From positions 23,828,527 to 23,892,526 of the forward strand of contig OX485808.1 of NCBI GenBank assembly GCA_950295325.1: a stretch of 64,000 nt of DNA. The letters run 5' to 3'. This DNA is from Polytrichum commune. Taxonomy: Eukaryota > Streptophyta > Polytrichopsida > Polytrichales > Polytrichaceae. Below, piece by piece: positions 3,679-63,936 of the stretch (position 1 is the first letter of the stretch; each line of letters starts with the position of its first letter). The notes beneath the pieces are model-generated. The model did no database searches. It was not told where the DNA came from and worked only from the letters and a program-made list of their open reading frames with translations. The position numbers were made by a program, and so were the translations under genes.

Positions 3679-4238
3679 AAACAATATGGACTTGACAAAC
3701 TAATTTTGACAAACATCCCGGTGGCGTACAATTATAAATTACTTATAGTATATTTATATACTAAAAACAAAAAATTATTAAATTATTAATATATACAAAA
3801 AATAAAACCCTACCTATAGTATTCATGAATACTATAACATAAAAAATTCACAAAGAAAACCCCCCCAACACCTCACAAAAACAAATCTATTTACTCACAA
3901 TACAACAATATCCTATCCAATACAACAAAGTACACAATACGACCTCGGCCTACTGGCCTCGCCACAAAATAAAACTAACAAGATATATACACTACCACTC
4001 CCTCAACCCCATCATTAACACAATCACAAAGCCTACCCAACAACATACTAAACCTATACACTATCTCCCAAAAACTACACAAAAAACAATAATTGCCTTA
4101 CCTAATCTATTTACAAAAAATATATATAAACTACTCACCTTAAATAAACCTCACCTCAACATCAAACACCATCCTAAACCCTATTTCAAACACCTATTAA
4201 ACCCTCATTCAAAATACCAACCTCACCGAAAAGGTACA
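3679..4238 (+). other. LINE-A ORF1-ORF2 spacer with 23-bp repeat
   Basis: This AT-rich spacer has a striking GC-rich block (CCTCGGCCTACTGGCCTCGC) at 3943-3965. The block is repeated with one mismatch at 4243-4265, exactly 300 bases downstream and over the presumed ORF2 start. The flanks of the two blocks are not similar, so this is not a simple tandem duplication. From here on the plus strand becomes strongly A/C rich and G poor. Confidence 0.5.
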
Positions 4239-5291
4239 ATGGCCTCGGCCTACCGGCCTCGCCACACAAATAATAACACATACCATTTCATAAATAACTG
4301 GAGACCTAACTCAATAACAAGCCAAAAATCTATAAAAAATACAAATTCACACTTCTCACCCAAACAAATGGAAAACATCATACCCGCTATACCTAACCTC
4401 TTTACCAAAACCAAGTTCACAATCATAATATATCTAAAACCAAACATGAAGAATAAAAAAATACTCCATTCCCACGGATACTACTTTATTAACAAACTAG
4501 AATTGCTAAAATGTGGGGACATAGAGCCCAACCCCGGACCAATGCCTAACATCCTACATACACACCCTATTACACACAAAAAAAGAGCCAACATCTACTT
4601 CATTCCAAACACTATAAAACTACAACCTGAATACCAACACATAGCAAACACATTTGACCCCATACTAAAAAACACACATCCACAATATCCTCAAGCAATA
4701 ACCACCTACCCGCATCTACATCAATATATCCAAACACAAAGGCAATCACCACTAACCCATATGCTATATGCTCTAATCGTCACCATCCACCCCTCAATAG
4801 ACACATGCAATAACATACTAGCCCAACCCCAAAATTATCAATTTAATAACATATGGACGAACACATTGATTATCAGACTGGCCAACCTCACCAACCCCCC
4901 CGAAAGGCATATATCAACACCTCACCCCTACACAATTTTTGTACAAAACAATCAAGATATAATATACCCAACAAATTCAATACACACACAGATATATGAA
5001 TTTATCCACAACCAAGATACTACACCAACACCAATCACCCTTCAAAATAAATTTCCCTTCCTCCCAAATCAATTTATCACCGAAGCACTCCGATGTCTAG
5101 AAAGCATCAACGAATATTCACACCCACCCCCACCCCCAGCTACTCCCACACCAACCCCAAGAATTAACACCGACACCGAGCACGAAACAAACATAATAAC
5201 ATGGAATGCGTCATCACTCAACACATCATTACCAAACCTACAAACCCTAATAAACAATTCGCTAAACAACACATCAATCATACATATCTAA
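4239..5291 (+). pseudogene. LINE-A ORF2 N-terminus with 2A-like ribosome-skipping motif
   Basis: The first open segment of ORF2 has residues 93-101 GDIEPNPGP (nt 4515-4541), preceded by LELLKC. This fits the 2A consensus D-x-E-x-N-P-G|P; skipping would release a ~100-residue leader from the enzymatic polyprotein. 2A-like motifs near the N-terminus are known in non-LTR elements of trypanosomes and marine invertebrates. Residues ~100-310 are Pro/Thr/Asn rich with no recognised fold. The last ~30 residues (NIITWNASSLNTSLPNL) begin the APE endonuclease. The segment ends at TAA 5289-5291, exactly where APE enzymes have Gln before the catalytic E-T, so the stop looks like a CAA to TAA change. The start codon is uncertain because the ORF2 initiation mode is unknown. 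Confidence 0.75.
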
Positions 5292-6005
5292 GAAACCAAA
5301 CTAACTACAAATAAATCTACAAAATACATACAAACCTATTTCCGGAATTTAAACTCATTTTCAACAACACACATGCACTCACAAGATGCATACAAGAAAG
5401 AATGCCATATACCCCTGGAAGAGGAGGCTTATTCACACTTATCCACAAGAAATATGCATTCCCTGGAAATATCACCAAAATTCCCACGCCAGTAAATATA
5501 TCCCCATACCTACAAATAATTAAAATAAACAACCATCCACTAATACCCTGGCTAATCATACACATGTACATGCCTACACACTTAAAAGACACATGCCTCA
5601 TTCCACACCTTAAGAATGAAATCACTAACCAAATCACTATACACCCCAATCACATTATGTGGGGACTTTAACCGAGATATCGCACTTAGAGGCAGACAAA
5701 ATAACAACATTAACACCCCTCCACAAGAAGAAGATTACCAATGGAAAATTTTCACCGAATCACTTTACCTAGAATATATCCCAACTAACACTAGCATCTC
5801 CAGACAAGGAGGCTATAATTACACATCAACAAGTCTAATAGATGGATTCTACATTCACTCACCAGACAACAACAAATTCATTTCTACCACAAACACAAAC
5901 ATGAATCTAAACTCAACCCACTATCCAGTTGTACTACATATTCCCCACAACACCCTTATAGCCAGATCCCCACCCCCACAAACACGTCACCAACTAGAAT
6001 ACTAA
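5292..6005 (+). pseudogene. LINE-A ORF2 APE-type endonuclease, frameshifted
   Basis: After the stop the frame continues with ETK, then shifts at about 5395-5402 to a frame reading GRGGLFTLIHKKY and HMYMPTH, and shifts again near 5650 to CGDFNRDIAL. These are successive landmarks of the exonuclease-endonuclease-phosphatase fold: the metal-binding Glu, the central strands and the GDFN loop. They are followed by STSLIDGFYI and the terminal STHYPVVL, which corresponds to the SDH catalytic His region. The domain nicks target DNA to prime reverse transcription. All landmarks survive, but at least one stop and two frameshifts make this copy non-functional. It ends with TAA at 6003-6005. Confidence 0.75.
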
Positions 6006-9000
6006 ACCCAATACCACCAGAAAACATCGAAAAATTCAACATAACATTCTTCGAAAAAAACTCTGCACAAATAAAAGCCCTTACCACCCTACTTGAAAAC
6101 CACCAACACTTAAGCCCGGATCAATGGGCGGAAGCCTGTACAACATTCGACCACATTGTATACAAAATTTCAAAAACAATTGAAGAAACATGTAAAGCAG
6201 ACCCACTACCCAACCTTACGAACAGAACATCACAACAAGGTGGGTTTTTGTCACGCAAACTTGCGAAAAAATGCAAAAGACACCTCAACACATATCACCT
6301 CATCAGGAAAACCATATATATTGCACAACACGATCCACTCTGGCAAGCACACCCCATCCTCACCGATACACAAAACCACCAACACACAAACATCCCACAC
6401 CCACATGTTACAACAGCACCTCATACTGAATGAATTGATGTCATAGCAACCATCGCAAAAAATGCAAATAAAGAAGCCAGGAAAATCCCCACAAAATACA
6501 CCAAAGACTGCATTCTAAAGGCCGTATCAAAATACCGTCAAATGTATGAAAAAAGCCCAAAAAGATAAATTGAAAAGTCTTCAAGAACACTGAAACCTCA
6601 CCCCTGGACTCCATCATTGATAGACAAAACAATATATTAACTAACCTAGAAGATATCGCAGCAGAAATATACACGCAACAATCCATCAGTAACCGCCCTA
6701 CAGTTCCCACATGCCAATATCAAAATACACACCCACTACACTGCACATGTGGAGTCCGGCAATATCCATGGCATGACTTAGACGGATACATCATTGACAA
6801 ACGAGGAGAACCCCAAACCCCCCTAAACACGTATTTTGACCAAGAAATATACGACTTTTGCCTTAAAAACCTAAGTAATAACAAAGCTCCAGGCCCAGAC
6901 AAAATACCCAATTCAATTCTAAAAAACATGCCTCCACGCTTCCATAAATTATTCTTCCTATTTTTTAAACATTGTTATAAATAAAAACAAATCCCTGCAT
7001 CATGAAGAACCAGTCTAACAGTTTTACTATACAAAAAAGGTAACCCATTACAACTAATAAACCATAGACATATTGCACTAGCTAACACCATATATAAATT
7101 CTACACGAGTACATTAACTTCTATCCTATCAGCGTATGGAGAAAAATACCAAATATTACACGATGGTCAAGAAGGGTTCAGAGCAGAGAGAAGCACTTCT
7201 AGACAAATCCAATTATTAATCGCAGCACTTGAAGACGCAAGACTCACGAACCAAGATATATATATCCTTTACATTGACTTCAAAAACGCCTTCGGCTCCA
7301 TTGATCACGCCAGACTTTTAGCCATAATGAAAGATCTGGGATATCCCACTGACTCCATAAATCTCATAGGAAACATATATTCACAATCCTCAATAATATT
7401 CACTGGTAAAACCTTACCAATTCCCATTCAAAGAGGTACAATACAAGGAGATACCCATAGCCCATATCTATTTATCACATTCCTTGAACCCCTCCTCAGA
7501 TGGCTACAACAAGAGAATAATGGATACACTTTTGGTACATCTAAAATTAAAATTTCATCAGCAGCATATGCAGATGACCTAGCAGCAATTGCCAATAAAC
7601 TAGAGACACTACAAACACAACTCAACAAACTAGACAAATTCTGCGAATGGGCAGGAATGGATCTTGGAATACCCAAGTACGCAATAACTGGGTGCCCAAA
7701 CAAATCCAAACTTCACCCCACAACCTTTAAAGCCCTAATCCAATCTACCAATATCAACTACAGAAACCAACCTATACCAGTCTTAAACCAACATGAACCA
7801 TACACGTATCTAGAAATAAATCTTGCACCATCACTCAAATGGAAAACGCAAATAAATACCACTACAGCTAAAGTAATAAAACAGTGTGAAGCCCTTGTAA
7901 CATGCCCAGCTACTATGAAACAAAAAATAAACATGGCAAATACAGTCATACGTGCTGTAATAGCATATAGCTTCTACGCAGTGCCATACTCCATACCAGC
8001 TATCAAAAAACTCGATAAAAAAATTATAGCACTTCACAAAACGGTATGCGGAATACCCAAATGCACATCTAACATCGCTACACAACTCCCACACAACCTA
8101 TTCGGAATCGAAGCATTCTCACTACAAAATGCCTATTTAAGATGCATTGGAGAACAACTACAAAACGCCCTCAATGATAAAGGTAGAATTGGGAAAATAT
8201 ATGTTGGTCTACTACAATTCATACTCGCCAAATACGGGGGCTCTAAGGAAACCACCCGCATTAAATATCTCCACTGTGTTAGATCACCCATCACTAGAAC
8301 ATTATTCTTGCTCAAACATAAAGCCGGAGTCCACCTAAAAAGTACAATAAACAATTTCCTACTAACCCCATCCCCACTTGAAACTGCATGGATGCAGGAA
8401 GCACAAATGCTTCATGGACTAAATTCCAACACCTCACTTAAATTACTCCACAAACTACTTGTACATAATATAATCACACTATACCAAATTACAATGTCTA
8501 ATGGTACCACTCTAATGAACCCGGACGAATTTAAAATCTACCACTCTACTCCTTCTAAACTTATCAAAAGCGCACTTAACATAGCTAATCAATTATTTTG
8601 CCACCCCCCTTGTAATCAATGCGCCCTACCATGCCAACAACACCATCCACCAAGATCCCTAAAAAATAAATATATAATAAGACACTACAATATCCTACCA
8701 CACCCACCAACCGCCCCCGTACACCCCCCTAACATCCCCATCCCCCCTCTACCCCCTCCTCCCAACAACATGCTTAAAGACCCCCGACAATTCCCTATAC
8801 ACAAAATAATCGATCATAAACAAAAACAATCCAATGACCATAACGGAATAAAAAGAACAGTCACGTCGTACTTATGTCAATGGACTACAACAAATAACAA
8901 TACATATAACAAATGGCGAACTCAAAGGGACCTATACCCCTACTGTGAAGCCAATACATGTAATCACAACACAGACCTACTTATCCATTACTACAAAGAA

Positions 9001-9309
9001 AGACAACACAAACATTTTTCAAACATAATTAATGCCTACTTCTCCACAGAACAACATAGTGATACAAGATACGTCACACCAACCACAATAATTCCACTAG
9101 CACATATCTCTATTAATGAATGCAACCCAGAAAACGACATCGAAACAAACTCTGATACCATCCAAACACAATGCGATGTCGCTCACATATACGAAGACAA
9201 TGGCCGACACCTCATTACCATCCCGAAAGCTAGACTAAAATGGCTATGGAAACAATACCAATTGGCAAAAAACAATACCAATTGGCAAAAAACAATACAA
9301 ACGGTCTAG
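6006..9309 (+). pseudogene. LINE-A ORF2 reverse transcriptase and C-terminal extension
   Basis: Up to about 6600 is a degraded linker. One frame then runs to the TAG at 9307-9309, interrupted by TAA 6982-6984 and TGA 7003-7005 (at a position where LINE RTs usually have Trp). RT blocks in order are NNKAPGPDKIPNSIL, LYKKGN, YIDFKNAFGSIDHA, RGTIQGDTHSPYLF and the catalytic AYADDL (YADD at 7567-7578). The part after ~8000 includes a Cys cluster (CHPPCNQCALPC, near 8600), conserved in LINE-B, and a Pro-rich stretch at ~8695-8765. Around 9246-9295 the 21-base unit CAATACCAATTGGCAAAAAA occurs in tandem, and coding moves into another frame there. The gene copies element RNA at the nicked target. Confidence 0.85.
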
Positions 9310-10094
9310 AACCATCTACCCAATCGTTTGAAACTGAAATTGTTTGGTTATACCAAAGATACAAATACCGTATCCCAAAAAATGACCCACTCAAACGAGC
9401 CCAATATACAATACCAACCCAAATATTAGATCTCCTGATTACAACATTCAATATTAACCACTCATATTTTTCATCCCCAGTTACATGCCCCACACAATTC
9501 ACCCAATTCTACTCACCATTCTCGCGAGACATAATATTTGGATTCCTAGGTAAAGCGTTTGACCATAAATGGCAAGGAATCGGTTACGCACACCCTCATA
9601 ATACAACAGACCTACAACAAGCTATTCACTGGGCGCGCATAGCGGCCCAAAATGATCCATATACAATCACTATACTTATATCTCCGGATACTAACTGGTA
9701 CCAAAACTCCAACCCACACACAGGCCCATTCCCAGACACACACGTCATTGCCCATTTCGCCGCTGATACGATCACGTATGAGGAACCCACAATACCCCCC
9801 GAGCTCAATATCACAAGAAAAGAACCATCTACCATGCAAATATTTTGTATCCATCACCAAAACAATAACATAGGCACCTACGAACAAATGAAATTAATAA
9901 ACGACACAGCAAATAACCTCCAAATACTACAAAGTCACACACAAACTGCACCACCCACCCCTCCAAACATCACCGTTAACCCTAGTAAAAAATGGGCCAA
10001 ATCAAACTACCCAAATACAATCCCACACAATAATACCCCTACCCCACAACTTCCAAACTACCACACTAATCTACCGCTAAAATTCCACCCCTAG
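9240..10094 (+). pseudogene. LINE-A ORF2 segment resembling an N6-adenine methyltransferase core
   Basis: This continues ORF2 in a new frame and lies between RT and RNase H. Visible order: a helical stretch ending FNINHSYFSSP (residues 70-80), then DIIFGFLGKAF (97-107), KWQGIGYAHPHN (110-121), AIHWARIAAQ (128-137), YTITILISPD (141-150), HVIAHF and MQIFCIHHQNN. The pattern FGxLG..F...W.G.GYxxPxx, a helix with WA, then a hydrophobic strand ending PD, is like PCIF1/Dam-type N6-adenine methyltransferases, in which the loop is N-P-P-F/Y. Here the loop reads AHPHN (nt 9588-9602), so activity is doubtful. LINE-B keeps the flanks but lacks this core. The match is by eye. TAG 10092-10094 replaces a codon that is Gln in LINE-B. 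Confidence 0.4.
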
Positions 10095-10106
10095 TTCAGC
10101 TACTAC

Positions 10107-11561
10107 ATGGATGGTTCCTTTATAAAACCCAAAGAAATTGCCCCTGGGGTATGGAGAAGAGAAAGAGCTGGATACGGTATCTATAGCCCCAAAGGCTTAA
10201 ATATCGCCAAAAGACTCCATGGGCATCAAAACATACTACGCGCAGAAATGATGGCTATACACAAAACACTAAGAATCATCAACACAAAATTCCCTAATGA
10301 ACCCGCATTCATATTCACGGACAGTCTAAACGTATTATACCTACTCAACACACAAATTAAACACCCCACTCTCCATAATAGTCACCCCGACCAAACCACA
10401 CTCAACTCCATGGTAAAAATCCTCCAAGATCGTACACAGCCAATCACACTATACAAAGTCAGAGCACATGTCAACATTGACGGTAATGAAAAAGCGGATA
10501 AACTAGCAAAAGACGGGTTAGAATTAGAACACAGAATTGCCATCCACCCATACGAACATGCCCACGCCACCCCGTACTATTACCAAAAGGACGTCTGGGC
10601 CTTGATGGCAGAAGTCCCAGACAAAGGCCCAGTAAGATTCTTAGAAAAAAAAATTAAAAAATATGATAAGGAAACCAATATAGCAATCATGGCCACACAA
10701 ACCCCCAACACGTGTAAATGGACAGAAAATATAGACATTGACAAAGAACTGTCCAACGAATTCTGGACAAATCCCTTAATCACAGACAAACAAAAATCCT
10801 GCCTTATTAAATTCCGCACAAGAACATACATGGGTAATGCTAGAAAACAAATGTTCTTCGGTCACCAGAGGTACCCCTCTATCACATGCCCTATATGCAA
10901 TTCAAACGATCCAGACACTTGGCTACATGTTCTACTGAAATGCAACCAACAACATATACACTCACTACGAATTAAAAGACATAACAAAGCAGTCGGAGAA
11001 ATTAGGAAGCTTCTAATCTCGTCCGAAAAATCCCGATGTTTTACTCTCATGAATGCCGGTACCTTCAATAATAACCCCCAAGAAAATACAGTCCCCAATT
11101 GGCTACTCCCCTGCACATGTAACACACAAAGATGTCATTGCAACGCAAGATTTCGACCTAATATACTCTGCGTTAAAGGATTACCATATCAAAATAAACC
11201 TCCCATTAACATTGACCCTAACCTCACCATACAATTTATTGAATTCACATATTGTAACGACAGATTCTCCCCGGAAACAATAGAAGCAAAAAACAACAAA
11301 TACAAACCTTTGATTGATAGTATCGCTTCCAGAGGATGGAAATTCGAACCACTTATTGTCATCACAGCTGGGGCCCAAGCTACGGCCCACATCCCATCTA
11401 TGAAAATACTAGAAGAAAATCTCAAAATACCCCTGGTTACCATCAAAAATACCTTTAAAAACATTAATACCATTGCAATACAATATGCCATGTCCATCCT
11501 CCTCCATAAGAGGAGAATTGAAAACCACCAACCGCTCCCCCAAAACTTAGACCCTCCATAA
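10107..11561 (+). pseudogene. LINE-A ORF2 C-terminus: RNase H, CCHC finger, restriction-like endonuclease
   Basis: This is in frame with the preceding segment. Residues 1-140 are type I RNase H with D2 (YMDGSF), E47 (RAEMMA), D72 (FTDSLN) and the VRAHVNIDGNEKADKLA block with D131. Residues 261-279 form a finger C261-C264-H274-C279 (CPICNSNDPDTWLHVLLKC). A Cys-rich turn (CTCNTQRCHC) follows. Residues ~350-470 match the restriction-like endonuclease of R2/NeSL/Dualen elements: RPN at 350-352 where the family has R/K-P-D, IEFTYC with E379, then EAKNNKYK with K395/K398. The P-D aspartate is Asn here (AAT for GAT), which should abolish cleavage. RNase H removes template RNA; the second endonuclease is the basis for the Dualen-like assignment. 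Stop at 11559-11561. Confidence 0.75.
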
Positions 11562-17750: not shown

Positions 17751-20732
17751 CAGGCCACGGTCCAGAGGTCGAGGCTTTGGCTTTTTCGGTGCCGCCCCCG
17801 CCCGTTGTCCTAATGCGTCGGAGATATTTAGAAAGACCCCGGAATTGGGAGGCCCGATGCCCTTTACGACCACGTTTGCTAGCTTGTCTCGAGGTTGACA
17901 GATAGCCGTAGGATGTAGATACGATGGACGGCTGAGATACTCCCACCCCTCTCGTTAGTGAGGCCATTAGTGAAGGCTCCGTGCTCTTAAGCTGACGGCC
18001 TGCAAGGTTTCCATAGCCGACCCTCAGATAGCTGCAGTGCATTTGTTTCCATTGCACTCGTGGTATTGCGTTCGTGCCGGTGTTGGCGGAGTTGTTCACT
18101 ATAAGTCGGGGGTGGAGATGATGTTGGGCATGATGGCGTGAAGAAGGATGGCTGGCATAATAATCTAGGGTTTCAGTATATACCACATTGGCAAGAGCTT
18201 GTTGGAAATCGATCAAGTGTGACTTTTGTTTCTCAACATTCACAAACGATCTGGCATCGAAGAGTTGTAACCGGATGAGTACTCTCTCGTTCGAGTGAGG
18301 TAGATCGTTGTTTCTACATCGTCCGAACCAAGAGTGCATGGGCGAAGGCAATCACAAGGCAGCAGAAAGATGAGTGGCACTAACACGTGAGGCATTGACG
18401 GATGCTACTGCCGGCAGAATATGGACAAGGTCCAAAGGGAAGAACCCACTCTCAGTTCGAAGTGAAGTAACGTCGGTGGGGTAGAAATGAAGGTGGGTTT
18501 GGAATGGCCGCGCAGGTTGCGTTGGTGTGCGCGGTTGGATCCTCTGATTTTCTCGGTCATAGTCGTCAGTTTGTGGTCCGTTGTGTCGCGCACCTCTCCA
18601 TGAGGAGTGCCCGAAACACCATGGGCACAAGGGGGACCCCGGAGTGACACCCGGGACTTGTGGCGCCGTTGGTGAGAGGGCCCAAGTGATCCTAGTGTGG
18701 GTGAGGGCCCCGGGCGTTGGGAACGCCTCCCACCCACGAAGACTAGGAGACACAAGGGTAAGGCCATGAGTTATGCGTAGCTCATGGCGTGGTGATTCTA
18801 GAAAGCTCAAGAACACCTCAATCAGAGGTGTGAGCTAGGAGTTATGGCCATTTGAGTGGGGCGCTGTCCCGGGACAGCGCCCTGGTACAGCAGTGCCTGG
18901 TAGTGATTCCCGAGACTGCCAAGGTTCAAACAGGCATACCTTCCTCAAGACTTGCTCAAATTGGGCAAGTGAGGAGTCCATCGGCATCTACGTGAAGCGT
19001 AGATGAGGATGGAGTGGTTGGTTGTTATGATCAGACATCATACAAGGAAGTTATGATGGTCTGAAGCTGCTAGGGGGTTCTAGGCCCAGCAGCTAAAGGA
19101 AAATGTCCACTTGGCCCCAACTCTTGGTAGAGAGACAAGAGGTTGGTTGACGGTGGGGTAGGGGCCCTGCGTGAAGTCCTAGAGGCTTATATGGGTGAGG
19201 TGGTGTGGCCTCACCCACCCGAGGCCGAACGGCAAGGCCTCCATGGGCATTGGCCCATTGTGAGGCCATAGTTGCCTAGTATGGTTCGGGTTGTTGTAGT
19301 GTTGCTCCGGCAATGCGATGATCAACATGGGATTGGACTTCCATGGATGGAAGTCCACATCTAGGAATGGGTTACCGATTAAGGGGTGAGTCCCGAAAGC
19401 AAAGTAGGAGGGTTGGTTCCCTCCTATGAACTATAAGGTCCGGGGTAGGAGGAGCTAATCATTAGCATGGCGGAATGCGAATGGTTAGCGCTCGTAACCT
19501 TTGCTAGAAACGAAAATTGGCAAGATTGTTAAGGGACCTAGCAAGGGTTGCGACACGTTGTGTATGCTACTCAAACGTCGGGGATAGGCGAGTATGATCA
19601 ACAGCTAAGACAAGGGAGTTGGTGACAACTGTTTGGGGTGGTGCTGTCACCCTCTTTGTGATCTCCTTTGATTACTGGAGGACACTGAAGACAATAGTGT
19701 ATGCTGATGATGATTCTAGGCGGAAATTCGGTGAAGTTGTGCTAAGGTTCTCAATGGCAATTCTGTACATTATAAATCCGGTTTTCATGCTTCTTCTGAT
19801 CGTTGAGAGTGCGGCGTGGAGATATCACATTTGGCGGAGAACGCCTGGGTGTGCAGTTTTGTCCTTGTTGTCACCATGGACGAAAGATTCTGCAAAGATC
19901 GTATGCGGTTGTGATGTTGTCATCGCTGTGCCTAAGGTGATTTCTATTCCGCAGAGCTTTATTGGTTCGGACTTGCCGAGCCTTTCAGAAGCAGTGGTGA
20001 TTGGTCGTGGACTAGAAGAATCACGGGAGACCAAAAACATTACCCTTAATTACAAGGGAGTAGAAGTTTTGTTGCAAATGGGTGTTCTTCCTCCATACAA
20101 TCACCTCAAGGTCTTGCAAGGACGTTCTGGGTGGGCCTCAATTATATCCTCAGTGCAAAGTGTGGGATATATATATGGTGTTGTGCTTCGGACTGTACAA
20201 GGACTCCCGGTGAGTCCAATTGAAGTTGTTGCGTTAACGTTGAGCATACAAATCTTGATAAGGGCTCTCCTACACAATATTGTAAGTTTAAGTTATATGC
20301 CCCTTCATGTTTATTTGACAGATCACCAAGCACAAACTTTTGTAGATACGTGCAGAGAATACACTGCAGATGGAGTTCTAAGATTTGGTTTGCGGGCCCA
20401 TGCGTGGTTATAGTCTTGTTGATTTCAAGTGTGGCGATTTATTACGTCATACATGTGTGGCAAACCACAAGGATAATCATGGTTGTCCCAATAATGCTAA
20501 CACTTGTTGGATTATATTTACAACTAATCTTAATGATGGCATATATATATATATGGGTCGGCATACAATTATCCCAATAATTGGAATTTCATGTACAATC
20601 ATGTGCACCATGGTAAATGTAACATCGTACATTCTTGCATTAGTTGTTACAATTAAATATTGGAAGGTTGATAGGTTGAATGCGAAATCTTCTAGCATGC
20701 TAGCTCAAATATTTCCATACATTGGTCAATAA
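17695..20732 (+). pseudogene. Broken paralogue of the multi-pass membrane protein gene (copy 1)
   Basis: 19619-20413 encodes a product closely similar to the middle of the ORF at 40018-41283 (for example LPSLSEAVVIGRG, GRSGWASIIS and VSPIEVVALTLSIQILI). The frame is lost near 20390. The next transmembrane part continues in the 20350-20580 frame (VVIVLLISSVAIYYVIHVW) and the C-terminus in the 20385-20732 frame (NAKSSSMLAQIFPYIGQ), so there are at least two frameshifts. A family-B LTR (18584-19555) separates the upstream part (17695-18583) from the rest. The minus-strand ORFs at 17716-18816 are shadows preserved by the duplication. This copy cannot make the full protein. Confidence 0.75.
18584..19555 (+). 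mobile_element. Family-B solo LTR inserted in the membrane-protein gene copy 1
   Basis: It starts TGTCGCGCACC, ends GGGTTGCGACA, and is flanked by perfect 5-bp duplications CGTTG (18579-18583 and 19556-19560). Copy 2 shows the unoccupied site at about 40109-40116. TG...CA ends, 5-bp duplication and ~970 bp without genes indicate a solo LTR left by recombination. It contains a perfect 24-bp GC-rich palindrome at 18859-18882. It inserted after the segmental duplication and helped inactivate this gene copy. Confidence 0.85.
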
Positions 20733-39224: not shown

Positions 39225-40017
39225 ATGAAGTGCACTCAATATGGGTTATATGGACAAGCGGCCTTCAAGAATGCCAGGGTCAGGCCACGGTCCAGAGGTC
39301 GAGGCTTTGGCTTTTTCGGTGCCGCCCCCGCCCGCCGTCCTAGTGTGTCAGAGATATCTAGAAAGACCCCGGAATGGGGAGGCCCGATGCCCTTTACGAC
39401 CACGTTTGCCAGCTTGTCTCGAGGTTGACAGATAGCCGTAGGATGTAGATACGATGGACGGATGAGATACTCCCACCCCTCCCGTTAGTGAGGCCGTTAG
39501 TGAAGGCTCCGTGCTCTTAAGCCGACGGCCTGCAAGGTTTCCATAGCCGACCCTCGGATAGCTGCAGTGCATTTGTTTCCATTGCACTCGTGGTATTGCG
39601 TTCGTGCCGGTGTTGGCGGAGTTGTTCACTATAAGTTGGGGGTGGAGATGATGTTGGGCATGATGGCGTGAAGAAGGATGCATGGCATAATAATCCGGGG
39701 TTTCAGTTTATACCATATTGGCAAGAGCTTGTTGGAAATCGATCCAGTGTGACTTTTGTTTCTGAACATTCACAAATGATCTGGCATCGAAGAGCTGTAA
39801 CCGGATGAGTACTCTCTCGTTCGAGTGAGGTAGATCGTTGTTTCTACATCGTCCGAACCAAGAGTGCATGGGCGAACGCAATCGCAAGGCAGCGGAAAGA
39901 TCAGTGGCACTAACACGTGAGGCATTGACGGATGCTACTGCCGGCAGAATCTTGACAAGGTCCAAAGGGAAGAACGCATTCTCATTTTCGAAGTGAAGTA
40001 ATGTCGGTGGGGTAGAA
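39225..40017 (+). pseudogene. Upstream part of membrane-protein gene copy 2, interrupted
   Basis: This GC-richer stretch is well conserved with 17695-18583. 39868-39996 reads 42 plausible codons (MGERNRKAAERSVALTREAL) in the same frame as the ORF at 40018, closed by TGA at 39994-39996. Earlier frames have several stops, so it is either a decayed 5' coding region or contains introns not resolvable here. The minus-strand ORFs over it (39348-40091) have no independent support. Confidence 0.4.
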
Positions 40018-41283
40018 ATGAAGGGGGGTTTGGAATGGTCGCGCAAGTTGCGTTGGTCTGTGCGGTTGGATCGTCTGATTTTCTCGGCCATAGTGGTCAG
40101 TTTGTGGTCCGTTGTGTCTACTGCTCAAACGTCGGGGACATGCGAGTGTGATCAACAGTGCCCTAAGACAAGGGAGTTGGTGACAACTATTTGGGGCGGT
40201 GCCGTCACCCTCTTTGTGCTCTCCTTTGATTTCTGGAGGACAGTGAAGACATTTATGTATGCTGATGATGATTCTGGGTGGGAATTCGGTAAAGTTGTGG
40301 GAACGTTGGCATTGGCAATTCTGTTCATTATAAATCCGGGTTTTATGCTTCTTGCGATTGTTTACAAGGGGGCGTGGAGATATCACCTGAGGCGGAGAAT
40401 GCCTGGGTTTACAATTTTGTCCTTGGTGTCACCATGGACGAAAGATCCTGCAAAGATCGTAATTGGTTGTGAAGTTGTCATCACTGTGCCTAAGGTGATT
40501 TCTATTCCTGATAGATTTATTGCTTTGAACTTGCCTAGCCTTTCAGAAGCAGTGGTGATTGGTCGTGGACCAGATGAATCAGGGGAGACCAAAAACATTC
40601 ACCTTACTGACGAGGGAATAGAAGTTTTGTTGCAAATGGGTGTTCTTCCTCCATACGATCAACTCAAGGTCTTGCAAGGACGTTCTGGGTGGGCCTCAAT
40701 TATATCCTTAGTGCAGAGTATGGGATATATATATGGTGTTGTGCTTCGGATTATACAAGGACTCCCGGTGAGTCCAATTGAAGTTGTTGCGTTAACGTTG
40801 AGCATACAAATCTTGATCAAGGCTCTCCTACACAATATTGTAAGTTTATGTTATATGCCCCTTCATGTATATTTGACAGATCGCCAAGCACAAACTTTTG
40901 TAGATAGGTGCAAAGAATACATTGCACATGAAGTTCCTAAGAGTTGGGTTGCGGGCCCATCCGTGGTTATAGTCTTGTTGGTTTCAAGTGTCGCGATTTA
41001 TTACGTCATACATGTGTGGCAAACAACAAGGAGAATCATGGTTGTCCCAATAATGCTAACACTTGTTGGATTATATTTACAATTAATCTTCATAGTGGCA
41101 TATACATATGGGCAACTGCATACAATTCGCATAATAATTGGATGTATAATCATGTGCACCATGGTAAATGTAACATCGTACGTTCTTGCATTAGTTGTTA
41201 CAATTAAACATTGGAAGGTTGATAGGTTGAATGCGAAATCTTCTAGCATGCTAGCTCAAATATTTCCATACATTGGTCAATAA
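40018..41283 (+). CDS. Multi-pass membrane protein of unknown function (421 aa)
   Basis: It is the best preserved host-like ORF here. Hydrophobic segments lie near residues 20-37 (signal anchor or first helix), 57-75, 92-116, 230-250, 255-280, 316-340, 346-368 and 376-398, giving about seven to eight helices. A short Cys cluster (CECDQQC, 42-48) follows the first. A hydrophilic loop at 120-225 carries MPGFTILSLVSPWTKDP and LLQMGVLPPYDQLKVLQG; the C-terminus is short and basic (KHWKVDRLNAKSSSML). I know of no named family. In-frame coding-like sequence upstream ends at TGA 39994-39996, so the true gene may have been longer and the ATG at 40018 may not be the original start. The frameshifted paralogue is at 19619-20732. 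It probably acts in a membrane; which one cannot be said. Confidence 0.6.
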   Translation: MKGGLEWSRKLRWSVRLDRLIFSAIVVSLWSVVSTAQTSGTCECDQQCPKTRELVTTIWGGAVTLFVLSFDFWRTVKTFMYADDDSGWEFGKVVGTLALAILFIINPGFMLLAIVYKGAWRYHLRRRMPGFTILSLVSPWTKDPAKIVIGCEVVITVPKVISIPDRFIALNLPSLSEAVVIGRGPDESGETKNIHLTDEGIEVLLQMGVLPPYDQLKVLQGRSGWASIISLVQSMGYIYGVVLRIIQGLPVSPIEVVALTLSIQILIKALLHNIVSLCYMPLHVYLTDRQAQTFVDRCKEYIAHEVPKSWVAGPSVVIVLLVSSVAIYYVIHVWQTTRRIMVVPIMLTLVGLYLQLIFIVAYTYGQLHTIRIIIGCIIMCTMVNVTSYVLALVVTIKHWKVDRLNAKSSSMLAQIFPYIGQ

Positions 41284-57385: not shown

Positions 57386-59317
57386 AGTTCCCCCAAGGCT
57401 ATGAGGTTGCTCAATCCGGAGGGAAACACTTCTGTCACGGTATGCGGCGTCGATGGCCGCACCTTATCCGTTGGGTTTCATCCATCTAGATTTGGATGGA
57501 TGAATCTAGATGTGGAGAGGAAGGCTCCTAAGTGAGGAGCCTCCTCCTTGGCTTGGCATTCTTGCCAAGTCAAGTCTTGTGAGTTAGTGTGTGGAGAGAG
57601 CTTGTGTGAGGTGTAGATTGCATGATTTTGCAATAAATCTTGAGTTCTTCTCCCTCTACTTACACTCTTGGATTCTCCCTTGGTGGAGTGAGAGATAGCT
57701 TGACTAATTGTGTGCATTTGAAGAGAGATTTAGAGCTATTATGAGTGTTCTACTTCTTCCTTCTCACTTGACAAGAATGCTTCATCTTTGATGTTTTCTA
57801 CTTCATTCTTGAGATGTAACGCGCAAGGGAGGGCGTGAAGACAAGGAGTGACGAAGTTGTGAAGCTCCGGAGGGAGAACACCGCGAATTTGCGAAGCAAC
57901 ATGAAGAATGTTTGCTTGTGAATGTCACTTCAAGGTGAATTGTGGTGATAAGGTGTTGCATTTTCCACGGAATTTCATGTTGTTTTGCTCACATTCAAGC
58001 TTGAATCCGTGACATTGAGCTTTGTAAGCGGAGTTTTGATTCTAAGTAGAAGAAACCTTGAATCAAATAAAAAAAAATCAAACTCAAATTCAAATAAAAT
58101 AAAAAAAACGGCCAAGAGCCGGCTCCGGGAGCCCCAGGTCCTGGCTCGCCCTAGTCTATACAGAAACGGCGGCTATCTGCGGCCGAAGCGGCGGCTAAGT
58201 GACGGCTGGGCTAAGTGACGGCTAAGTACTGGGCTAAGTGACTATTACAATCCTCAAATTCTTTAACCTCCACCCTTTAAGGTACTTGGGCTAAGTACTG
58301 GGCTAAGTGACGGCTGGGCTAAGTGACGGCTGCTGGTCAGGCTGTTCGTCTGCATGCGCTCCAACTGAGGGAAGACTATGTTGGGCATAATCAATTGAGA
58401 ACCGGGTGTTTGCAAGTTCAACCGGTTCGTGTTGACAAATTTTTTTTTTTTTTTTTGAATTAATCAATGCGTTAATGAATTAAAAGCGGACTTAATTTAA
58501 TTTAATTTAATAAATAAAAATTGGATTTTTAATTTTAATTAAATTAATTAATTAGTTTATGTTTCCTTTCAACTTTTAATTTTTCTGCTCTTTCTAAGAG
58601 GTTAATTTCTTGGGCTCATTAATCAAGGACACAAGGAAAAAAACCTAAGTTCTTATGAAATATTAAAAATACTTGGGATTCTTTTTAGGGGTTGTGTTGT
58701 ACAAAATTTCCGAGGGGAGTGTCATTGGGAATTGGGTGGCATGTGGAATTTTTGTTCGGCCTAAAATAAATTATTATTAGGGTCGAATTGTGTTTATCAA
58801 TACATAATCCTGGCATTGTTGTGAGGATAAATTCTTAGGTAGTGGTGGGAAAATGAGAGATGTGCAGTTTCTTTTCTTAAGCAACAGGGCCTCTTCATTT
58901 TGACCACCAACCGCAGGCGGGTGCCGGTTGGTCGCGGTTGCTTTCAATTTTTGTTTAAGTGTTGTTTTGGGGAAGATGATCCAGTGCTGTTATTGCATTG
59001 TTCCTTGTATTTTGTTGTGGTACCTTCCCCTGTTGCGGGCTATTGTGTTGGAGTCTTCCAACATTGCCCATTTTGTGTTGTCTTAGTTTGTGATAGGATA
59101 TTGTGGGGGTGAGGTCGGAGTAATGACCGACGAGACCCTTGTGTGTGCACCAAGTGGGCGGTGCTTGTATTCCCTTATGGTGAGGCTGAATTGATGACCA
59201 GCAGACCATAAGTTTGGTGGTGTTTGCAGGTGCAGGTTGCATTTCACCTTTTGACCTTTGTACCTGGATACTAATTCATTTGGGTTGTTGATTCGGTGAC
59301 CATCCCATTGTGGGTTT
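57386..59317 (+). other. Possible 5' LTR/leader of the Ty3-like element; tandem GGCTAAGTGACGGCT repeat
   Basis: No gene is recognised. 58183-58340 contains about six units of GGCTAAGTGACGGCT or GGGCTAAGTGACGG; inside it, 58236-58278 is a reverse complement of sequence at about 21335-21377. A poly-T run lies at 58440-58456, followed by AT-rich DNA to 58560. The 5' LTR of the following retrotransposon should lie here, but I could not place its ends or a tRNA primer site. Confidence 0.3.
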
Positions 59318-59880
59318 ATGGTTACAACTCGTAGTCAACATTATCGTTCTCCGTCCCCAGGAGCATCGGAAGGTCATCCCTCGGACCTCTCGGACGTTGA
59401 ACCAGTGGTAGCACCCAACGAGGCTTTTCAGCCTACTTCGGCGTAGGGGACTATCACTCGGTCTCACGTCCTGTGGGTGGGAACCTTTGACGATATGGAG
59501 GAGGAGACTAGGGGAGGGATATGAGACCGGTTTTCCGGTCAAGCAGGGACCATTTCTCTACAAGACTGGAAAATCCGGTTTCGTACGTGGATGCGAGAGA
59601 AACGCCAACGCAATACCAATTTTAACGATTGGTATGTGTTCGAGCTTCTACCTCAACATTTGGAGCATGAAGCTCTCCAAACTTATGAGCAGTGGACGGA
59701 GGCTCATTGGATGGAGGTGCGCCAGGTGGAGCGATACTGGGAGACTTGGGTTGAGTTGGTATCCGCATTGAAAGAAGGCGCAGCTTCCAGTTTCATGGCC
59801 GTCCCTGAGGTTAAGTCGGAGGTGTCGAGGGAGTATTTGTGGTGGACGTGGAGGGAGCTTCTCATGGTGAACCCAAGGAT
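59318..59880 (+). pseudogene. gag N-terminal region, two stops
   Basis: An ATG at 59318 (MVTTRSQHYRSPSPGASE) opens a frame with TAG near 59444 and TGA near 59522. It then reads ISLQDWKIRFRTWMREK, FELLPQHLEHEALQTY and ETWVELVSALKEGA, a helical pattern usual for Ty3-type capsid proteins. The frame shifts by one at about 59840-59885 into the next segment. It would form the virus-like particle that packages element RNA. Confidence 0.55.
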
Positions 59881-60501
59881 AAGGGTTCTGCTCCCGCTGT
59901 GGCGAGTACGTCGAGCCCCATTCTTCCACTCTCCCGTTATGCCCAGGCTACCCAGGCGGCTTTAGCTTCTTTGGGGGCTCCGCCAGTTTTTGAGCCGTTG
60001 CGGGCATTTGAGCTGCATCTACATGAGGAGTACGGAGGTTTCCGCCGGGACCAGATGCAGCGGATACAAGATTTTAGACGGGAGAAGGACGATACACCTC
60101 GTACCATGTATACGAGGTTGGCGAGGTTTGCCAGAGAATCTGGAGGTGTGTTTGCGGAAAGTCTATTGGTAAAGGTGTTTTTGTCCAAGATTGACAAACG
60201 CCTCCTTGACTTGGCGCTGCCCAGGATCATCATGGATTATGGTGGCCGGGCGACACTTGCAGAAGCTTTCGCTATTGTCGAGCAGTGTGATCGTGCATTG
60301 TGTCAACACGATGCCACTGATTTGGTGTCCTTGCTAGTAGATTCTAGCAAATCCCGAAGAGTTCCGGTTGCGGTTGCGGGATTGACGGAGGCCGAGGTGG
60401 ACAAGACCATGTATTGTTGGCCTTGTGGGCAGGCCGGCCACGCTAAGAAGGACTGTCCTTCGAAGCAAAGGCAAGCCCAGACCATCACTACTCCGAAGTG
60501 A
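59839..60501 (+). pseudogene. gag capsid and nucleocapsid with CCHC zinc knuckle
   Basis: 220 codons. The capsid-like part has FELHLHEEYGGFRRDQMQ, TPRTMYTRLARFARESG and LLVKVFLSKIDKRLLDL, typical of the retrotransposon gag domain. Residues 193-206 are a perfect CX2CX4HX4C knuckle, CWPCGQAGHAKKDC (nt 60415-60456), which binds element RNA. The first residues before ~59880 are probably read from the previous frame. It ends at TGA 60499-60501; the following sequence continues in the same frame. Confidence 0.75.
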
Positions 60502-61374
60502 AAACCATTTGTTCCCGCTAAGGAGTCGAAGAAGGGCACGGGTAAACATTTACCCAAGCAGTTGAAGTGTTCCCATTATGGGCGGAATAATCATGCGGTG
60601 GAGAACTGCTTTGCTCTCCATCCTGAGAAATGTCCTTCTTCCGACCGGGAGAAGACGTTGGAGGCAAAGGTTGGAGCCATGGAGGAGAGGTTCAAAAGCT
60701 TGTCGTCATCCGGCCAAATCTTGGCCTCACCGTCTTCCTCTGGAGCTCAGGCTAGTTCTTCTACTCCAGATTATTATATGTTCGGAGCCTTGGGCAAGGT
60801 GGTGAGTTCCGCAGCCGTAACACGTGCTCAAGCCGTGTCACAAGCTATACCTTCGACCACAAGTGAGTATGTGGCAAGCTTGCGAGCTCGGGACAATGCG
60901 CCCACGGACCAGATTGGTCAGGCACGACTACCATTATCTTTTGGATTGGCCGATGTCGTCCAATCTGTCAGTGGTCGTCATCCGAACGATGAAGTTTCAA
61001 ATTCAGCGACCGACGTGGCTCATACGTTGGCATCTAAGGTGTTGCACACACCTTTGTTCACGACACTAGAGTGGTCGTCGCCAGAGTTCCAACCTGCTAA
61101 GGTTTCTCGCTTAGCAGGTAGGATTTTGGAAGGGAAGGCATCCTTACCTTCTCTGACCATGGCTCAAGCCAATACGGACATCCCTGCTTCTGAAGATCCT
61201 GAGGAGGTGGCCAAACAGCGAGCGAGACTTGCGGCAAAGGCCATTGCGTCTTTTGACGCACACGCCTCAGATGACAGGGCACCGACCACGTCTTATGACT
61301 CACCAGTATCCGCGGGAGCAACTTATTTGTCTGATGTCGCTGCTAGACCTGCCCGCGAGCGCCGCGGCATTTGA
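60502..61374 (+). pseudogene. gag C-terminal part with damaged second knuckle
   Basis: It continues in the frame of the preceding segment. Near 60565 a second knuckle-like motif reads KCSHYGRNNHAVENC: the second Cys of a CX2CX4HX4C finger is Tyr. A Ser/Ala-rich linker follows (60700-61370) with one short helix. It ends at TGA 61372-61374, again with the frame continuing beyond. The linker has no other recognisable domain. Confidence 0.6.
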
Positions 61375-62124
61375 CCCGGCGTTGTGCGTATGGTAAATGA
61401 TATCGGCATTTTGGTGGTCAGTCGCACTGGGAGCAATGCTACTCGGGTTGCTCCTCGTTGTGTGATGATGGATTCAGGGGCACAACCAGTTATGATCGGC
61501 AAGAGGCTTGCCCAAGAGTTGGGGTTGGCGGCCGAGGATTTGGCTCCCTGTCCATTCATCATTGTCACATTCATTGATCACGTGGAACGGGCCACGGGTT
61601 ATACTCGCGAGCCATTACAGCTTAATTTCCAAGTGAAGCCTGGAGATTCACCCGCACCTCTTCTTCTTAGGTGTGTGGTGACGGATGCGACCAACTATGA
61701 CATTTTAGTTGGTCAACAAGCACTTTCTCCTCTTGGTTTTGGTTTGGACAACTGGACTGAGGAGGCGTGGATCCGACCAGGTTGGTCGGCTGGGGATGGC
61801 CGCAGGGAACTTATTCCCGTGGCTTTCGCGGCAGCCGCGACCATAGCACCATTATCTATGGTTTTTGGATGTGGTGCTATGGTGGACACATTGCCTTATG
61901 GTTCCGCATTGTTGGAGGAGTCATTAGCATTCATGGGAAGTACAGACGATCAACGGAATATGGCACCTAAAGGTGCATTAGTGCGCCATCCCAAGGATCC
62001 CCTTCCTCCTTGGCGTGATTCCGCCGAGCTATTTCGGAGGTGCGAGGATATTATTCACTCTTTCACTCCCAGAACACCGGTCATATCGGATGCCTTCTCG
62101 GCATTGGCACATCCCATTTTATAG
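61375..62124 (+). pseudogene. Retrotransposon aspartic protease (retropepsin)
   Basis: ORF 61384-62124. Residues 26-30 MMDSG contain the catalytic D-S-G (family D-S/T-G), followed by AQPVMIGKRLAQELGL. Residues 101-110 TNYDILVGQQ form the second hydrophobic signature (ILVG). A linker (residues ~115-245) follows, with no recognised fold. It would cleave the gag-pol polyprotein. It ends at TAG 62122-62124; the codons after it (CAG CCG CCA) stay in frame with the methyltransferase, so protease and methyltransferase were one polyprotein. Confidence 0.75.
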
Positions 62125-63260
62125 CAGCCGCCAGACGCGGGGATTACTTTGGTGGAACTATTTGGGGGCATCGGCACAGGCTTAGCGGCCGTATTGGAGG
62201 TTGGCCTCACGGTTAGACGGTATGTCTATGTGGACAACTCTCAAGTATCCACCCGTGTGGCTCGTCACCATCTTCACCATTTGATGGTATTGTACCCCCA
62301 GCAGTTACCTCCAACTGCCATTCGTGGGTGTTTTTCACGTCTTCCTCGTGATGTTACACTCATCAGTGAGGCCGACTTACGACACTTGGGTCCGGTGGAT
62401 ATGGTCATTGCGGGATGGCCATGCCAGGGCCATTCACGTACTGGAGCCGGCCGAGGTCTAGAGGATCCCAGGTCTAATTTATTTTGGGACCTCATCCGCC
62501 TCATGCAGTGGTGGTTTTCCCACCAACATACCCCTCCATGGTATATATTCGAGAATGTACCATTGTTGGGCGACTCTGGGGATAAGGTGTTGGAAGGTGA
62601 TCATTATGTTCGTCAACACCTTGGAGATCCCATTTTTGTGGATGCCGCGAGCATTGGTTCTTATGCCCACCGGCCTCGCTGGATTTGGACCAACCTCGCA
62701 CCGTCATCTACTTTAGCTGCAGCATTTTCTGCAGTACCTCCACCTTTGGATCAGAAGGTGGATGACATCTTGGATCAAACCGGACCTCTTTGCCGGTTGT
62801 TCGAGATGATTTACCCCCGTTGGCATTGGTCAACAAAGTGGGGGCACCACGGAAAGCATTTCCCACCTTTATGACGTTTCCACAGTCATTCGCCTTCCGC
62901 GATCGGGGGCCGGGTATGGTGTTGGATGCTAACACCAAGACCCACACTGAACCCTTGGCTGATGAACGAGAGCGTGCCATGGGCTTCCGCACTGGTACCA
63001 CCGCAGTTCCTGGCCTTCCTGAGGGCCAACGACGCTTCGTATTGGGCCAAGCCATGGATCTCCATACAATGGTGTGGACTGTTAGTTTATGCCTTGCATT
63101 GCAACGGCATCGTGGTGACCAGTTATTGTCTCTGGGGGAAGAGGATTCTGGTCAGGGGGCAGAGGATTCTGGTCAGGGGGCACAGCGATCCACATCCATG
63201 GAGGAGGGAATTGATGTCATGGTTGGAGAAGCCGAACGAATCTTTCGATTCGAGCAGTAG
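62125..63260 (+). pseudogene. C5 cytosine DNA methyltransferase domain within retrotransposon polyprotein
   Basis: Motifs lie in canonical order. I: VELFGGIGTGLAAV (~62152-62193); IV: AGWPCQGHS with catalytic Cys at 62422-62424; VI: FENV (~62551); VIII: YAHRPRW (~62662-62680); IX: FPTFMTFPQSFAF (~62859-62897); X: RRFVLGQAMDLHTM (~63031-63072), the family's G-N-A being G-Q-A here. Motifs I-VIII are in one frame and IX-X in another, so a one-base shift lies near 62780-62795. The order is not the rearranged order of plant DRM enzymes; VDAASIGSYAHRPRWIW resembles the DNMT3 group. It would methylate cytosine using S-adenosylmethionine. A 21-bp repeat (GAGGATTCTGGTCAGGGGGC) is doubled at ~63140-63181. 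TAG at 63258-63260. Confidence 0.85.
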
Positions 63261-63447
63261 GTAATGGAGGAGCTCCGAGCTCAACGAATTTATACTGCTT
63301 TGGCTTCTTTACCTCCGGTGGTGGCTTCATCATCACATATTGGTGGTGATGAAGAGGAGATGGACTCTATTGCTAGCACGGAGGTTGGGGGCATGGTTAA
63401 TGTCCCCTCCTCTCATTAGCAGTTAGAATCCGTGCCAGCACCAGGTG
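63261..63447 (+). pseudogene. Polyprotein continuation after methyltransferase
   Basis: The frame of motifs IX-X reads on past TAG 63258-63260 (MEELRAQRIYTALASLPPVV) to another TAG near 63418, then to the MITE at 63448. It is an acidic linker without recognised domain. Confidence 0.5.
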
Positions 63448-63857
63448 CACGGGGGGATCACACCCCCTTACATTTCATAACCACGTGCGATAAAAGTTTG
63501 CTACCCTATATTACATGTCATAGATAATTTTTAAAATTATGATATTTTTTTCTACATACACATAACCATTGATAATATCTTTTGTATATTTTTTTGAAAT
63601 TTTTAGTCATCTTCATTTTTTGTAGTAATTTGTTTAGTTCAATGTTGCGTCATTCTAGTTAGAAACGGTATGTTTTATAAAAAAAACAAATCATCAAATT
63701 TGGTTACCAATTTTTACTATGTAATAGATACTATGTATATCTACTCATGAAAAAAAATCATAAACTTTTGAACCATTTTGGTGATGCTTTTATGTAAAAG
63801 TAGATTTTGTTTTATCGCACGTGGTGTTCAACTTGACAATGAAGTGCACCCCCCGTG
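63448..63857 (+). mobile_element. hAT-like MITE (family M4), 410 bp
   Basis: It has CACGGGGGG at the left and CCCCCCGTG at the right, with imperfect inverted similarity reaching ~50 bases (CCACGTGCGATAAAA at both ends). It is flanked by the 8-bp duplication ACCAGGTG (63440-63447, 63858-63865). AT-rich interior without ORF. A partial relative is at 38537-38735. It interrupts the retrotransposon polyprotein. Confidence 0.8.
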
Positions 63858-63865
63858 ACCAGGTG

Positions 63866-63936
63866 GCTCTCTTCTAGTGGAAAGGGAGACCACAGAGTTT
63901 GATGATTGGCCATTGGAATTGGGCCCTCATCTCACT
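63866..63936 (+). pseudogene. Retrotransposon polyprotein fragment between MITE and LTR
   Basis: One frame reads GSLLVERETTEFDDWPLELG without stops, consistent with the polyprotein resuming after the MITE. Confidence 0.45.

Follow-up and report, generated by a model that had tools for sequence, protein, structure and literature searches.

A Ty3-like retrotransposon of the moss Polytrichum commune with a built-in, DNMT3-like cytosine methyltransferase

We analyzed a window of 64,000 nucleotides from Polytrichum commune (assembly GCA_950295325.1, contig OX485808.1, positions 23,828,527-23,892,526 of the forward strand; coordinates below are those of the window) and found that 57433-63936 is a decayed copy of an autonomous Ty3-like retrotransposon with a built-in C5 cytosine methyltransferase (MTase). 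A preliminary description of this DNA had placed such an element at 61384-63260; its account of the content was borne out, but the true start lies at 57433 and the copy runs on to 63936. All parts of the element are on the plus strand. The left end is formed by a 5' terminal repeat unit, B (57433-57765), which runs from TGTCACGG to CTTCTC and is 96% identical to the B unit of an intact copy (L041). Directly after B lies a primer-binding site (PBS), ACTTGACAAGAAT (57766-57778), which in most intact copies, across three lineages and with compensatory changes, has a perfect 13-nt complement inside B; in the window the corresponding self-priming target within B, the predicted RNA 5' end (57558-57570), carries one mismatch to a perfect complement. 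A tblastn search with the 1372-aa intact first open reading frame (ORF1) of L041 traced the degraded gag-protease-MTase frame over 59318-63419, ending at the TAG at 63417-63419. Within it, the gag zinc knuckle of the CCHC type, CWPCGQAGHAKKDC (60415-60456; PF00098 match), is present as described, but lies upstream of the interval first proposed. It is followed by an aspartic protease region (61375-61745) recognized through weak PF13975/PF13650 matches (E 0.006 in the window, E 0.0012 in an intact copy), with the D-S-G active site that had been reported, at 61471-61479.

The MTase itself occupies 62137-63065 and is preceded by an in-frame TAG (62122-62124), a sense codon in intact copies. The hidden Markov model search with PF00145 that had been proposed as a check matched 62125-62874 with 48.4 bits (E 1.2e-12, cut-off 22). 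Motifs I (LVELFGGIGTG, 62149-62181), IV (PCQ, 62419-62427, with the catalytic Cys at 62422-62424), VI (ENV, 62551-62559) and VIII (AHRPRWIWTNL, 62665-62697) are followed, past a frameshift near 62770 and in another frame, by IX and X (ERERAMGF, 62964-62987, and QRRFVLGQAMDL, 63027-63062); the position of the catalytic Cys agrees exactly with the preliminary description, and the TAG and the motif series (62149-63062) are present as described there. At the boundary with ORF2 the stop stands in the leaky context TAG CAGTTA (63417-63425). A later, MITE-like (miniature inverted-repeat transposable element) insertion of 412 bp (63448-63859, no strand assigned), with 9-bp terminal inverted repeats CACGGGGGG/CCCCCCGTG and an 8-bp duplication, ACCAGGTG, interrupts the start of ORF2, of which the first 77 bp beyond the insertion remain (63860-63936) before unrelated DNA breaks the element off from 63937. 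With two frameshifts, several stops and these disruptions, the window copy is a pseudogene.

PsaB encoded on the plastid contig scored highest against the three Physcomitrium patens photosystem entries (1671.8 bits, compared with about 1600 for the best entries from seed plants and about 1514 for Chlamydomonas), as expected of a moss, and the seven large contigs of the 408-Mb assembly may reflect n=7. When this assembly was searched with PF00145, 123 scored matches were obtained, nearly all from this family of MTase elements; with the MTases of two subfamilies as queries, at least 152 and at least 107 places were listed, about 250 after overlap. Uninterrupted gag-protease-MTase frames of about 1350-1386 aa numbered at least 11 and at least 17 in the two subfamily listings (at least 28 in total), the counts of places and frames being lower bounds and the frames having been tallied by hand from the listings. 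Many stop-ridden MTase copies lie on contig C4 at about 41-58 Mb, in what may be an old region that is heterochromatic or does not recombine. Among the copies with intact reverse transcriptase (RT), RNase H, integrase and terminal repeats, a search for which had also been proposed, ORF1 (1366-1386 aa) holds the CCHC gag, the aspartic protease and the MTase in a single open frame, and ORF2 (about 1045 aa) encodes the RT, the RNase H, an integrase with H2C2 and rve domains and, C-terminal to the integrase, a PHD finger (PF00628, E 2e-10 and 2e-8). Protease, RT, RNase H and integrase stand, together with the CCHC gag, in the Ty3/Gypsy order, as read from Pfam matches only (RVT_1, RT_RNaseH and rve).

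The TAG between gag-protease and MTase in the window copy, where no RT is seen either, would fit a gag-protease from one element abutting an MTase gene of its neighbour, an outcome that the preliminary description had named as fatal to its proposal, along with an MTase outside the element borders. This reading, to which we attach next to no probability, is refuted by the single frames of 1366-1386 aa that span gag, protease and MTase inside borders flanked by target-site duplications (TSDs). The seventeen-base junction between the repeat units of the element (A-gc-B, see below) occurred 212 times at no more than one mismatch, compared with 2 occurrences of a reversed control, and for 50 of the 64 junctions on contigs C1-C3 a same-strand MTase from the listings lies upstream, in most cases at a distance of 4.6-5.0 kb. 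Because the borders are TSD-flanked and junction and MTase are paired at a near-constant distance, the MTase is inside the element.

ORF1 and ORF2 share one frame and are separated by a single UAG, followed by CARYYA in 37 of 38 genomic copies (31 CAATTA, 3 CAGTTA and 3 CAATCA). Tobamoviruses provide the classical example of readthrough in the UAG-CARYYA context. Since this leaky stop lies downstream of the MTase, we infer that gag, protease and MTase would be made at the high dosage of Gag, and RT, integrase and PHD finger by readthrough only.

The same architecture was found on a 9,285-bp contig, CADCWO010000201.1, labelled as part of a cyanobacterial metagenome-assembled genome, in which identity to the moss element is 68-72% in the MTase, about 90% in the RT and 91-93% in the integrase, and in which the UAG is followed by CAATCA. 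Other open RT frames of the long terminal repeat (LTR) type lie in the same GTDB cyanobacterial bin, on contigs C91, C259, C16, C92 and C123, and for this reason CADCWO010000201.1 appears to be eukaryotic contamination; on our reading of the isolate name, the source sample was soil crust. The two moss subfamilies and this relative are about equally distant from one another in the MTase, which must therefore have been present before the three lineages split.

Judged by sequence, the MTase is closest to DNMT3A/B, with the motifs in unrearranged order from I to X. In searches of the solved structures in the PDB with phmmer and with a ten-sequence profile, DNMT3A/B ranked first (47-49 bits, DNMT3A nearest), followed by DRM (30-35), HaeIII and HhaI (20-29, with HhaI at no more than 26) and then DNMT2, and DNMT1 was absent from the matches. 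A control, bacterial Dcm sharing the local AGWPCQG motif, ranked HhaI first and did not reach DNMT3. The fold predicted from the window MTase alone (pLDDT 34) was discarded; a five-sequence alignment of the relative on CADCWO010000201.1, the window piece and three Streptomyces MTases yielded a model of the relative with pLDDT 50, to be taken as a hint only, and a Foldseek search with this partly confident model again ranked DNMT3A/B first. In DRM enzymes motifs VI-X stand before I-IV, whereas here the order is I, IV, VI, VIII, IX, X, and the preliminary description was right to set the rearranged DRM type aside. Streptomyces MTases with AGWPCQG, chosen by that pattern, were considered as a likely source and rejected, being 23-25% identical overall to the relative and HhaI-like. 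Relatives were also sought in viral contigs, and none were found there.

The MTase is a fixed domain that, to judge from substitution rates, is under purifying selection. Between the subfamilies dN/dS was 0.13 in the MTase, 0.11 in the protease, 0.29 in the neighbouring linker, 0.61 in the tail and 0.03 in the RT, values that are rough with dS near saturation; within the first subfamily the MTase gave 0.18-0.25. The many broken copies, that of the window included, might suggest an MTase that was captured a single time and has since ridden along without function, but such a passenger is contradicted by the dN/dS of 0.13, by the conservation of all catalytic motifs in three lineages and by the at least 28 open frames, and we consider it very improbable.

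The borders of the element have an unusual form. In the window subfamily the repeat units are B, of 333 bp starting with TGTCACGG, and A, of 106 bp ending with ACACGACA, and in intact copies B begins at the TSD. The long form, TSD-B-coding region-polypurine tract (PPT)-A-gc-B-A-TSD, was found in 18 of the 21 classified copies, and the short form, B-coding region-A, in the other three, where TSDs are also present; identical LTRs at both ends of an insertion were not found, the left end being B and the right end A. Of the 21 copies with both borders, 18 have an exact 4-bp TSD, and in the others three of the four bases match (border forms and TSDs were tallied by hand). The terminal motif GACA-gc-TGTC is conserved in all three lineages, unlike the start of A and the end of B. 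Within one insertion, the two B units differ at 0-7 of about 333 bases, and in two insertions they are identical (such insertions lie, for instance, near C5:8788221 and C1:30665892); some insertions are therefore recent.

Directly behind the 5' B unit, a 13-mer has an exact complement within B in the window subfamily (ACTTGGCAAGAAT with ATTCTTGCCAAGT, B+123-125), in the second subfamily (ACTTGACAACAAT, complement at B+188) and in the relative on CADCWO010000201.1 (ACTTGACAAAGAT, complement at B+182). Three positions of this duplex vary between the three lineages and every change is compensated, and among 100,000 shuffles of B none contained the complement; perfect pairing has been lost in a few copies, the window copy among them. 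The covariation makes it highly probable that the element primes its own reverse transcription from the 13-nt PBS: RNA starting inside B would fold back onto the PBS behind B and so prime its own minus strand. A tRNA primer was dropped as unneeded after the self-complement had been found. Self-priming in the mode of Tf1 has been predicted for some plant lineages (PMC6317226).

With the PBS directly behind B and the PPT directly before A, A-gc-B would act as the LTR in reverse transcription, with U3 corresponding to A-gc-start of B and R-U5 to the remainder of B; under this reading the B/A junction within long insertions is exactly U5/U3. As insertions run from B on the left to A on the right, the integrase would have to use the internal GACA-gc-TGTC junction, and by opening two-LTR circles there it would generate B...A-gc-B-A insertions, the short B...A form arising from one-LTR circles or by later A-A recombination. 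Integration from circular DNA is thus suggested by the repeat anatomy, at odds that we put just short of even. The same layout of repeats occurs in PAT/DIRS elements, and KnitGypsy-Dnmt3, an element of the charophyte Klebsormidium nitens, has been described likewise (de Mendoza 2018, PMC5890265). The long form could accordingly come from a DIRS-like template jump, on a linear or circular intermediate, and the short form from later A-A recombination, a route that we hold to be a distinct possibility, though the less expected one, as PBS and PPT make A-gc-B an ordinary LTR and B/A exactly its U5/U3 junction. The relative's contig closes on itself through a 127-bp overlap with one A-gc-B, which fits a circle and equally a collapsed repeat graph giving the same overlap, and was not accepted as proof of a circle.

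We then considered what the enzyme may do. Across 30 copies, scored at positions identical in three reference copies, C-to-T changes amounted to 3.9% at CG, 3.6% at CHG and 1.8% at CHH, and transitions at A/T sites to 0.8%. Germ-line methylation of the copies, in the CG and CHG pattern of plant silencing, is the most likely cause. A host MET1 is indicated by two adjacent DNMT1-RFD matches in the assembly. Set free inside the particle in amounts matching those of Gag, the MTase might methylate the cDNA of its own element at CG sites, either ahead of integration or during it. The copy, landing already methylated, would be maintained by host MET1 and would be either tolerated as self or silenced; we see self-methylation of the cDNA as the likeliest role, at about even odds. 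The enzyme may instead have been kept for another role, namely methylation of host DNA or RNA, protection of the cDNA from nucleases or deaminases, or limitation of its own transposition to spare the host, options that are listed in the 2018 report (PMC5890265). Purifying selection shows that there is a role and not which one, and the decay footprint is host-like. That the MTase is encoded in the Gag frame, as part of that polyprotein and ahead of the leaky stop, points by contrast to action inside the particle, where the main DNA is element cDNA, and we regard another role as plausible at best.

Collectively, the best explanation of these findings is a selected, DNMT3-like MTase in an autonomous Ty3-like element that would prime itself, integrate from circles and methylate its own cDNA, an overall account to which we give a probability of roughly 0.8, the description of the element itself being close to certain. 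Several points weigh against it. The activity of the MTase is predicted from sequence alone, and the related domain of KnitGypsy-Dnmt3 was inactive in yeast, a result that its authors call inconclusive (PMC5890265). Placement with DNMT3 draws on profile ranking and Foldseek only, and motif IV reads PCQ in every aligned copy, compared with PCN in DNMT3 and DRM. Decay at CG and CHG fits silencing by host MET1/CMT and is not diagnostic of the element's enzyme; the circle model comes from repeat anatomy only, and a template jump could yield the same long form. The strongest form of the proposal, in which a land-plant retrotransposon methylates its own cDNA and also integrates as a closed circle, so that most insertions carry an internal U5/U3 junction, is accordingly offered as tentative.

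A 2019 opinion held that land plants, tracheophytes for example, lack transposon methylases (PMC6338049), and the moss host extends MTase-carrying retrotransposons beyond algae and dinoflagellates. As far as the literature shows, new features are a land-plant host, a high copy number with many open frames and a leaky stop downstream of the MTase, together with self-priming through a covarying duplex, split repeats flanked by exact TSDs, a PHD finger after the integrase and the reading of the internal junction as that of a circle. That a mobile element should carry the host's own silencing-type enzyme is a paradox raised in 2018; many copies, some of them recent, and no fewer than 28 open frames make the role of the enzyme testable. 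Circle integration, if true, would mean that a DDE integrase can act on circular DNA, something ruled out by the accepted retroviral picture of a linear substrate.

Elsewhere in the window, a LINE-like (long interspersed nuclear element) element at 3843-11561 (plus strand) has RT and RNase H frames, and its first ORF contains a 2A-like GDIEPNPGP at 4515-4541. Two similar frames for predicted membrane proteins, at 19598-20413 and 39997-41283 (plus strand), lie about 20 kb apart and look like a duplicated host gene.

Among known systems, DNMT3A/B are the nearest solved structures by sequence and fold and share motif VIII (AHR.R..W.NL) and the last motifs, but have PCN where the moss enzyme has PCQ; their ADD or PWWP domains are not attached here, a PHD finger on the integrase being found instead. 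DIRS/PAT-like elements have split direct repeats in the order A1-ORFs-B1-A2-B2, comparable to B...A-gc-B-A in 18 of 21 copies here. Their integration relies on a tyrosine recombinase and produces no TSD, whereas the moss element has an rve and H2C2 integrase and a 4-bp TSD. Tf1/Sushi and the plant element Tcn1 also prime themselves from the RNA 5' end onto a PBS behind the 5' repeat (PMC6317226), but carry chromodomains and ordinary LTRs and no MTase, compared with the PHD finger and split repeats described here. As the preliminary description correctly stated, cytosine MTases captured by retrotransposons are known from charophytes and dinoflagellates (PMC5890265). Of the dinoflagellate elements with captured C5 MTases, SymbioDIRS-Dnmt3 and SymbioLINE-Dnmt, the former encode enzymes that methylate CG de novo in yeast; these elements are of tyrosine-recombinase or LINE type and represent independent captures, unlike an element with a DDE integrase and 4-bp TSDs. 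KnitGypsy-Dnmt3 is the closest known system. A UAG leaky stop, self-priming, TSDs and a PHD finger go unmentioned for it in the passages of the 2018 report consulted (PMC5890265), and its host is a charophyte with fewer copies than Symbiodinium, compared with about 250 MTase copies in a moss. Compared by description, it shares with the moss element the Gypsy domains, a polyprotein that includes a Dnmt3-related MTase of non-rearranged type, repeats that were described as DIRS-like, and purifying selection on the MTase (PMC5890265).
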